IMG/VR virus record: IMGVR_UViG_3300032050_000028
Span: 58,304-122,303 of that record
Strand: one strand, 5' to 3'
Origin: a virus
DNA: 64,000 nt
Shown: one piece after another, positions 43,241 through 45,253 of the stretch
Numbering within the stretch: the first letter of the stretch is position 1
Layout: each line of letters opens with the position of its first letter
Notes under the pieces: generated by a model
The model's database searches: none
What the model was told of the DNA's origin: nothing
The model's input: the letters and a program-made list of their open reading frames with translations, nothing else
Translations under genes and position numbers: made by a program

Positions 43241-43277
43241 AAAAAAAAGGAGAAAATTTAAACTTTCTCCTTTTTTT
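43241..43277 (+). terminator. Rho-independent terminator after nrdA
   Basis: The AAAGGAGAAA/TTTCTCCTTT hairpin is followed by a T run. It separates nrdA transcription from the RNA candidate downstream. Confidence 0.85.
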
Positions 43278-43389
43278 ATGCTATAAAAAATCCACCTTCG
43301 AAAAAAACGAAATTTTGAAGGTTGATATATAACATACTTTTAAGAAAAAAAATTAAAACTTTTTAAACTTTTTGATTTTTTGAAATAAA

Positions 43390-43769
43390 AGTTTAACTAA
43401 CAATTACCCAGTAGTGAGATAGAGAGTTACTTCGAAATTTGGATTCTAAAAAACACTCTCCGTCAATTTACTCTGGTCAATTATATAGTTTAAAACGCAA
43501 ACATAGCGATAGTTTGAGATACTTCGATACAATTTATAAATTCAGAACGATCGAAAAGTGTCTAAAGCGACTAGCTAAGACTACCAACAGCCTTTTTAAG
43601 GTGAGGTGAAAAGTCCGGAAGATACCACGTAAAGGGTCAAGTGAGATGATACTTTAATTATCGGCAAAGTTTTTGGGAGAATTCTTTGTAACGCTCAGGC
43701 TAAATTATCTTGTTTGCTAAATTATATAAAAAGACCAGATTTATCTTCGGATAGTCTGGTCTTTTTTTT
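43390..43769 (+). ncRNA. Candidate large structured RNA upstream of Ro60
   Basis: About 520 bases between two terminators hold no credible gene on either strand, which is exceptional in this dense genome. The stretch is less AT-rich than other gaps and shows paired elements: GAGAGT/ACTCTC (43422-43427 with 43455-43460), CAAAC/GTTTG (43498-43502 with 43512-43516), CCTT/AAGG (43591-43601) and long-range AGCCT/AGGCT (43589-43593 with 43697-43701). It ends in a UUCG-capped terminator. It lies directly before the Ro60 gene, where bacterial Y RNAs usually occur, but it is longer than known YrlA RNAs (about 100-200 nt). The 5' end is a guess. Alternatives: a large ornate phage RNA class, or a long regulatory leader. 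Confidence 0.55.
43729..43769 (+). terminator. UUCG-capped Rho-independent terminator
   Basis: AAAGACCAGA pairs with TCTGGTCTTT (43730-43739 with 43755-43764), continued by TATC-TTCG-GATA, then eight T. It ends the RNA candidate 30 bases before the Ro60 start, so Ro60 needs its own promoter or read-through. Confidence 0.93.
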
Positions 43770-43798
43770 GTATTAAAATTAAAAATAAAAATAAAGTT

Positions 43799-45253
43799 AT
43801 GTCAAAATTTAACGCAACATTACCAAAACAAAAAACACTAACTGAAAACTTAGCTGGTGGACAAGCTTATTCTCAATCTACTGAGATGGCACTAGTATCT
43901 CTTTTATTAACATCATTTGTTAATGACCAGTTTTATAGAGGTGCTCAAACCACGCTACAGGAATTGAAGAAGTTATCCGAGAAAGTTAAAGACAAAGAAT
44001 TTGTCGCTAAATCTGCTATTTATGCTCGTGATAAGTTTGGAATGCGTAGTGTTACTCATGCACTTGCTGCTGAATTAACCTCTCAGTTGAATGGTGCTGA
44101 GTGGGGTAAAGACTTTTATAATAAAGTTATTGTTCGTGTTGATGACATGACTGAAATTCTTTCTTATTACTTAGCCTACAAAACCGAAAAAGACAATCCT
44201 AAGTTTCCTAATTCTTTGAAAAAGGGATTTGCTAAGGCTTTTGATAAATTTGATGGTTATCAGTTGGCTAAGTATAAAGGAGAAAACAAAGATGTTAAAC
44301 TAGTTGATATAGTAAACTTGGTCCATCCAGTTCCAACTCAAAGAAACAAAGAAGCTTTAGAACTTCTTGTAAAAGGTGAGTTAAAGAATACTGAGACTTG
44401 GGAAGCTAAGTTATCTGCAGTTGGACAACAAGCGGATTCGGAAGAAGAGTTGGCTAATTTGAAGTCAAATGCTTGGTCTGAACTTATTGAAACGAGAAAA
44501 ATTGGATATTTTGCGCTTCTTAGAAATTTAAGGAACATTATTACACAATCTCCAGGTTCTGTAAAATCGGCTTGTGAAATGTTAGTTGATGAAAAGTTGA
44601 TAAAAAACTCAAGAGTTCTTCCTTTCCGTTTTGCTACTGCTTACGATGAAATTAATAAAGTTGGATCATCTAAGGAGGTTAGAGACGTTCTTGTTGCTAT
44701 CAATCAGGCTCTTGAAGTTTCTATTCATAACGTTCCTAAATTTGAAGGTGAGACGCTTGTAGTAATGGATGTATCTGGTTCCATGATGGGTAGAGCATCT
44801 GAAATTGCTTCTCTTTTCGGAGCAGTTTTGGCAAAAGCAAACAACTGTGATGTTATGAAATTTGCCACTAATGCTGATTATAAATCATACAATCCATTGG
44901 ATTCTGTTATGTCTATAAGAAATAGTTTTAAGTATTCTGGTGGTGGAACTAACTTCAAAGCTATTTTTCAAAAGGCTAATAAAAAATATGACCGTGTTAT
45001 TATCTTAAGTGATATGCAAGGCTGGGTAGGTTATACAAGTCCATCTTCAGAGTTCAAGTCTTACAAAAAGAAATTTGATGCGAATCCTTTTGTTTATTCT
45101 TGGGATTTAGCTGGTTACGGAACTTTACAGTTTCCTGAAAATAATGTGTTTTGTTTGGCAGGATTCTCTGATAAAGTTTTTGATATTATGGGTCTTATGG
45201 AGACTGATAAGAAGGCACTTTATAATGAGATTAACTCTATCAAAATAGTTTAA
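43799..45253 (+). CDS. rsr: Ro60/TROVE-domain RNA-binding protein (484 aa)
   Basis: The TROVE HEAT-repeat ring spans residues about 15-300 (AIYARDKFGMRSVTHALAAE; KIGYFALLRNLRNIITQSPG; VLPFRFATAYDEI). The C-terminal von Willebrand A domain has the MIDAS motif LVVMDVSGSMMGR (D324-x-S-x-S) and later GGGTNFKAIF and VIILSDMQGW. Ro60 and bacterial Rsr proteins bind Y RNAs and misfolded or structured RNAs and, with PNPase, take part in RNA degradation. Length is close to the family norm. The adjacent upstream structured RNA candidate makes a phage Ro60-RNA particle plausible. The gene name follows the bacterial orthologue. A strong terminator follows. Confidence 0.93.
   Translation: MSKFNATLPKQKTLTENLAGGQAYSQSTEMALVSLLLTSFVNDQFYRGAQTTLQELKKLSEKVKDKEFVAKSAIYARDKFGMRSVTHALAAELTSQLNGAEWGKDFYNKVIVRVDDMTEILSYYLAYKTEKDNPKFPNSLKKGFAKAFDKFDGYQLAKYKGENKDVKLVDIVNLVHPVPTQRNKEALELLVKGELKNTETWEAKLSAVGQQADSEEELANLKSNAWSELIETRKIGYFALLRNLRNIITQSPGSVKSACEMLVDEKLIKNSRVLPFRFATAYDEINKVGSSKEVRDVLVAINQALEVSIHNVPKFEGETLVVMDVSGSMMGRASEIASLFGAVLAKANNCDVMKFATNADYKSYNPLDSVMSIRNSFKYSGGGTNFKAIFQKANKKYDRVIILSDMQGWVGYTSPSSEFKSYKKKFDANPFVYSWDLAGYGTLQFPENNVFCLAGFSDKVFDIMGLMETDKKALYNEINSIKIV

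Follow-up and report, generated by a model that had tools for sequence, protein, structure and literature searches.

Two concatenated Y RNA modules predicted upstream of a giant-phage ro60 gene

Described Ro60 and Y RNA systems and the phage locus

Ro60 proteins and Y RNAs are known from animals and from some bacteria. The bacterial protein Rsr binds its Y RNA at the basal stem, and PNPase is tethered through a tRNA-like domain at the distal end of that RNA (PMC8394870). In the YrlA RNAs, which are 90–150 nt long (PMC8394870), the tRNA-like domain is regarded as the effector domain (PMC8394870, PMC7790460). Salmonella encodes two adjacent Y RNA genes, and its operon of rsr and Y RNA genes is activated by tRNA fragments (PMC7790460). 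Ro60 proteins are also encoded by phages, including Thermus phage phiLo (9l5y), crAss001, mycobacteriophages, and jumbo phages, all of which combine TROVE and VWA domains in a Ro60 fold, as is the case here. In the literature searched, we found no description of Y RNAs belonging to the known phage Ro60 proteins.

The window analyzed here, a stretch of 64,000 nt, belongs to a giant-phage virus record that is available as a 122-kb fragment. We estimate a probability of about 0.8 that the gap at 43281–43798 encodes a noncoding RNA of ~370 nt, composed of two concatenated Y modules and serving as the partner of the adjacent phage Ro60. The features of the locus are as follows.

43242–43277 (strand not assigned): terminator 1, the intrinsic terminator of nrdA (16-bp stem and T run; the hairpin could serve either strand), bounding the RNA locus on its 5' side
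43289–43331 (+): conserved hairpin block from AATCCACCTTYGAAAAAAANYGAAATTTT to AGGTTGATATATA, kept in 11 of 12 aligned relatives; one copy in the window
43362–43390 (+): AT-rich block 5' of module 1, conserved in alignment A1, candidate promoter region; one copy in the window
43408–43476 (+): Y module 1, 69 nt, from covariation, covariance model R1, and shuffles
43408–43411/43473–43476 (+): module 1 outer stem
43412–43417 opposite 43465–43472 (+): module 1 internal loop, UAGUGA opposite AAUUUACU
43418–43427/43455–43464 (+): module 1 inner stem, followed by UACUUCG and a 27-nt loop
43477–43496 (+): inter-module linker, 20 nt, AU-rich and without a terminator (linkers in the clade are mostly 3–24 nt)
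43497–43717 (+): Y module 2, 221 nt, from pairing in relatives, site rank, and shuffles
43497–43503/43711–43717 (+): module 2 outer stem
43504–43509 opposite 43703–43710 (+): module 2 internal loop, UAGCGA opposite AAUUAUCU
43510–43518/43694–43702 (+): module 2 inner stem
43520–43693 (+): module 2 distal domain, conserved across the clade and matching no known family
43639–43662 (+): pseudoknot in the distal domain, hairpin 43639–43642/43651–43654 with its loop GAUGAU (43645–43650) pairing with AUUAUC (43657–43662)
43728–43767 (+): terminator 2, intrinsic and UUCG-capped, predicted end of the Y RNA, from folding and conservation
43799–45253 (+): ro60, a 484-aa TROVE and VWA protein with an intact MIDAS, from Pfam, PHROG, alignment, and the AlphaFold fold

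Much of this organization parallels YrlA (RF02553; rsr-yrlBA-rtcBA in Salmonella), in which a two-part basal helix with an internal loop binds Rsr/Ro60 and a distal effector domain and ro60 linkage are likewise found, binding by the phage protein being predicted. The joint occurrence of yrlB and yrlA is similarly reminiscent of the two modules. However, the length of each module falls outside the YrlA range, module 1 lacks a distal domain, and module 2 carries a 174-nt pseudoknotted domain in place of a tRNA mimic; the permuted tRNA-like domain of YrlA is present in many relatives of the window locus. Unlike the Salmonella genes, the modules are concatenated in one apparent transcription unit, and a search of the 122-kb record fragment found no rtcB; a search for RNA-ligase families there returned no match, nor did its control. 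The proposed logic, in which a basal stem binds and gates Ro60 and a distal domain tethers an effector, also resembles that of RYPER from D. radiodurans (Rsr, Y RNA, and PNPase), except that the phage RNA would present two modules on one molecule and that PNPase is the partner in RYPER. Provisionally, concatenation and a large distal domain would both be new for a Y RNA, as would a tandem phage Y RNA.

The initial annotation had recognized a full-length Ro60 homologue with an intact MIDAS, and the protein analyses fully agree. The protein exceeds the cut-off of Pfam TROVE (PF05731, E = 2.4e-21) and matches PHROG 850 (RNA-binding protein, 6e-47), while the five MIDAS residues of its VWA domain (DxSxS, T, D: D324, S326, S328, T384, and D405) are unchanged across 15 relatives. 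Its AlphaFold model (pLDDT 82) has structural matches to the Ro60 of Thermus phage phiLo, Xenopus Ro, human Ro60, and D. radiodurans Rsr, and the PDB entries matched at E <= 0.001 number 13, every one a Ro60/TROVE protein (best 2.8e-17). Phage Ro60 proteins, including that of phiLo, are the nearest structural matches, and the KYK and LxHP stretches line up with 9l5y. The nearest relatives of the protein are encoded by viral contigs of up to 476 kb and by LR745206, a 634-kb phage genome. Elsewhere, an HNH endonuclease ORF splits ro60 (L017:5472-6164, as well as L016 and L021); a group I intron was considered as the interrupting element and rejected, as there was no Rfam group I match. The ro60 frame of L011 (5001-6450) is split into 129 and 344 aa, which reflects either a frameshift or a sequencing error.

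Evidence for two Y modules in the gap

Upstream of ro60, the initial annotation had described about 520 gene-free bases bounded by two strong terminators and containing several paired elements, a description that our analysis upholds in each respect. There is no credible ORF from the end of nrdA (43226) to the start of ro60. Terminator 2 lies ~30 nt upstream of the ro60 start codon, folds with -19.5 kcal/mol (z -5.8; none of 200 shuffles was equally stable), and is kept, with changes, in every relative of alignment A1. The entire gap is also unusually stable (z -4.8; 0/100 equally stable shuffles), with the terminator contributing to this score, and its sequence is conserved in all close relatives. 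A search for a sigma-70 consensus promoter at the AT-rich block found none, the scores being no better than those of shuffles.

Both modules share a common architecture consisting of an outer stem, an internal loop with UAGYGA opposite AAUUWWCU, an inner stem, and UACUUCG. The same order recurs with distant relatives as outer stem, 5' loop UAGYRA, inner stem, UACUUCG, variable insert, inner stem, 3' loop AAUUUUCU, and outer stem. Covariation among related phages, on which the initial annotation had staked its RNA candidate, is readily apparent. When the gap was aligned with the orthologous gaps of 12 relatives on sequence alone, 96.5% of cells were paired, and 9 pairs exhibited double changes versus 3.2 in shuffles, with none of 500 shuffles reaching as high. 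In the module 1 inner stem, 8 of 10 pairs underwent compensatory change among these orthologues, and the internal-loop sequences on both the 5' and 3' sides are conserved while the stems vary. The module 1 partner strand outscored all but one of 100 shuffles. For module 2, the six tested pairs of the outer helix form in all 12 relatives and the inner helix is 97% paired; since these stems vary less, support for this module rests more on its architecture, on shuffles (0/100), and on its rank as the best-scoring of the 78 UACWUC sites in the window. In an insert-removed chimeric core alignment (A4), the 3' part did not align correctly, and this alignment was left out of the statistics.

The strongest single result comes from covariance model R1, which was trained on 30 short-insert modules (A6) from phages and bacteria outside the clade of the window and thus saw no member of that clade. 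Applied to the 122-kb record, R1 recovered module 1 at E = 4.6e-11 as its sole significant match, the only other reported match being at chance level (E = 0.46). Module 2 has no direct match due to its large insert. The A6 stems contain 163 double-change cells versus 48 in shuffles and have a covariation score of 0.90 versus 0.22, values that are somewhat inflated by the pairing-rewarding scanner. Many modules were picked by this scanner and counts on such sets are biased upwards, a bias that is addressed by the orthologue alignment, the shuffles, an opposite-strand control, and the cross-lineage model.

Judged from the sequence, the module architecture, covariation, homology, ro60 linkage, and pseudoknot are thus well founded, and the Y RNA identity of the gap RNA is strongly supported computationally. 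The proposal that the gap may encode a new class of Y RNA acting together with Ro60 gains computational support from module covariation, the R1 match, homologous modules upstream of ro60, and the YrlA matches in relatives, the binding itself being a prediction. The RNA had also been considered longer than known Y RNAs. It is indeed long, but not as one oversized stem-loop: its length is that of two joined modules, one with a large insert, and this tandem, modular organization was absent from the earlier account.

Modules, inserts, and tRNAs in related loci

Modules are found upstream of ro60 on the coding strand in dozens of phages and bacteria, the bacterial carriers identified by R1 and the scanner including Bacteroidota, Verrucomicrobiota, and others. 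The census comprises 170 forward versus 10 reverse modules among viral loci and 99 versus 2 among bacterial loci. There are 1–6 modules per locus in this set, which was not fully dereplicated; at some ro60 loci, the scanner recognized no module, and in Thermus phage phiLo no module of the window type occurs upstream of ro60. Inter-module linkers are AU-rich with a median of 14 nt (quartiles 7–40 nt), and a T6 run is present in only 9 of 139. Because the linkers are short and T6 runs few, every array resembles a single transcription unit. A boxA-like GTTCTTTRA is located upstream of the first module in 9 of 103 loci (e.g. L134, L156, L191, and L199), at ~0.75 per kb versus 0.01 in flanking sequence, and could possibly serve antitermination of an untranslated array; no such site was found near the window copy.

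The modules differ chiefly in their inserts. A T-arm motif is found in none of the inserts <35 nt, whereas at insert lengths of 76–124 nt it occurs in 30/34 from viruses and 39/46 from bacteria, compared with 8% of control 85-mers. By their sequence features, these T-arm-bearing inserts are classed as permuted tRNA mimics of the YrlA type. Several of the tRNA-like modules of relatives match the YrlA model (RF02553) with 28–56 bits (E 6e-10 to 0.05), never reaching the curated cut-off of 69 bits. In L034:2666-2884 (OR575929, csAssE-Sib) and L039:2750-2864 (Xanthomonas phage 10KY502B), Y-module/YrlA matches a short distance upstream of ro60 overlap with genes annotated as tRNA-Tyr, tRNA-Lys, and tRNA-Thr, which are probably misannotated Y RNAs.

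Module 2 of the window belongs to a separate class of large inserts (>= 160 nt). Its distal domain reaches up to 273 nt in relatives, and it has no Rfam match. Within the clade of the window, the domain exists in three sequence types, all of which retain a hairpin with a loop that pairs to a stretch immediately 3' of it. In a hand alignment of this short region from 21 sequences, 97 of 105 pseudoknot cells are paired, with 0/5000 row shuffles as high. The replacements include GAUGG/CUAUC to GGUCA/UGACC and GGCCA/UGGCC, along with UAUGG/CUAUA and AAUGG/CCAUU. We rejected the idea that AAGUCCGG, which lies within the insert, is RNase P-like, as inspection by eye found no partner strand for pairing and Rfam gave no support. 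Four bacterial loci (L087, L091, L094, and L098) contain inserts of 147–194 nt that apparently share motifs with one another and may form a distal-domain family of their own.

The link to tRNAs comes from the relatives, since the window copy has no tRNA-like domain (a T-arm motif search of its insert found none), no YrlA model match in its modules, and no tRNA gene in the window. Far from ro60, three more modules occur in the 634-kb phage and one more in the 476-kb relative, and all four sit among tRNA genes. One of them is short, one is of the YrlA type, and two have a body resembling tRNA-Leu(UAA). The latter two (L217:1003-1122 and L216:1000-1102, from the 476-kb and 634-kb phages) are Y/tRNA-Leu chimeras within tRNA arrays, in which the D, anticodon, and T arms are arranged as in an ordinary tRNA, with the acceptor stem replaced by the Y inner stem. 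Among the bacterial ro60 loci (L053–L131), 31 of 79 have at least five tRNA genes nearby, within the stretch of sequence covered, mostly in Verrucomicrobiota and Bacteroidota. Archaeal tRNA clusters have been reported with TROVE genes as well (20/29; PMC6333295).

Proposed function and alternative explanations

Based upon these features, we infer that the gap is transcribed, possibly from the AT-rich block as promoter region, and that its RNA binds Ro60. The two-part basal helix of each module, together with its conserved internal loop, would form the Ro60 binding site. Module 1 would act as a minimal Y RNA that occupies and gates the Ro60 ring. The distal domain of module 2 would most likely tether Ro60 to another factor, such as a nuclease or a processing or modifying enzyme, because it stands where YrlA RNAs present their tRNA mimic. 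As the ro60 start is only ~30 nt past terminator 2, its mRNA would probably arise by terminator read-through, which should yield RNA in excess of Ro60 protein. The job of such a complex would likely be RNA surveillance in infection; it is probably tRNA-centered, since relatives mostly carry a tRNA mimic as their variable domain and have Y modules or ro60 placed within tRNA arrays. Defense against tRNA cleavage would be an alternative job.

The same arrangement might be read as a cis-acting ro60 leader, with Ro60 on Y-like helices controlling read-through of the terminator in an autoregulatory manner and no trans action needed. The position of terminator 2, which is conserved in the whole close clade and leaves little room for a promoter of ro60 itself, would suit such a leader, as would the location of modules directly upstream of ro60 in most relatives. 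We nevertheless consider it improbable as the sole explanation, as the 634-kb and 476-kb relatives have Y modules in tRNA arrays far from ro60, crAss001 has a candidate module downstream of ro60, and tRNA-mimic inserts are hard to explain as mere leader elements. A leader role and a trans-acting Y RNA role are not mutually exclusive. Far less credible still is some other large structured phage RNA, of the GOLLD, ROOL, OLE, RNase P, tmRNA, or group I type, for which ro60 would simply be a neighbor. The length, the conservation, and the complex pseudoknotted distal domain would be in keeping with such an RNA, but the Y modules account for both RNA ends, and scans of the gap on either strand found no Rfam family at the curated cut-off and, under permissive settings, only weak matches at chance level. 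The candidates GOLLD, ROOL, OLE, RNase P, and tmRNA named at the outset thus gained no support.

Within the preferred reading of a Y RNA acting as partner of Ro60, it is a nearly even question whether the tandem is a precursor whose linker is cut to release separate Y RNAs, concatenation then serving co-expression and not multi-ring assembly. AU-rich linkers with quartiles of 7–40 nt are compatible with cleavage, every module has a complete basal stem by itself, and the modules between tRNA genes in sister phages would have their transcripts separated by tRNA processing. However, no cleavage signal was identified, and the constant two-module order and short linker in the close clade would equally suit a rigid scaffold. 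More tentatively, poly-Y RNAs may form a distinct class in which one transcript bears several Ro60-binding modules with differing effector domains (none, a tRNA mimic, a real tRNA body, or a large pseudoknotted domain) and serves as a scaffold for several Ro60 rings. In that case, the pseudoknotted domain of this clade might be a new kind of RNA effector domain, recruiting or inhibiting some host factor, e.g. a tRNA-cutting defense or RNA-degradation enzyme.

Regardless of which arrangement applies, the locus supplies a defined candidate RNA partner for a phage Ro60 and suggests that Y RNAs are modular, with a constant, predicted Ro60-binding helix that bears exchangeable distal domains and occurs in as many as six copies per locus. 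The search model finds Y RNAs that are missed by the curated Rfam threshold and called tRNAs by tRNA finders, and the large conserved pseudoknotted domain constitutes an unclassified RNA domain. The recurrent tRNA mimics and tRNA arrays make it testable whether phages survey tRNAs with Ro60 RNPs, for example when host defenses cut tRNAs.
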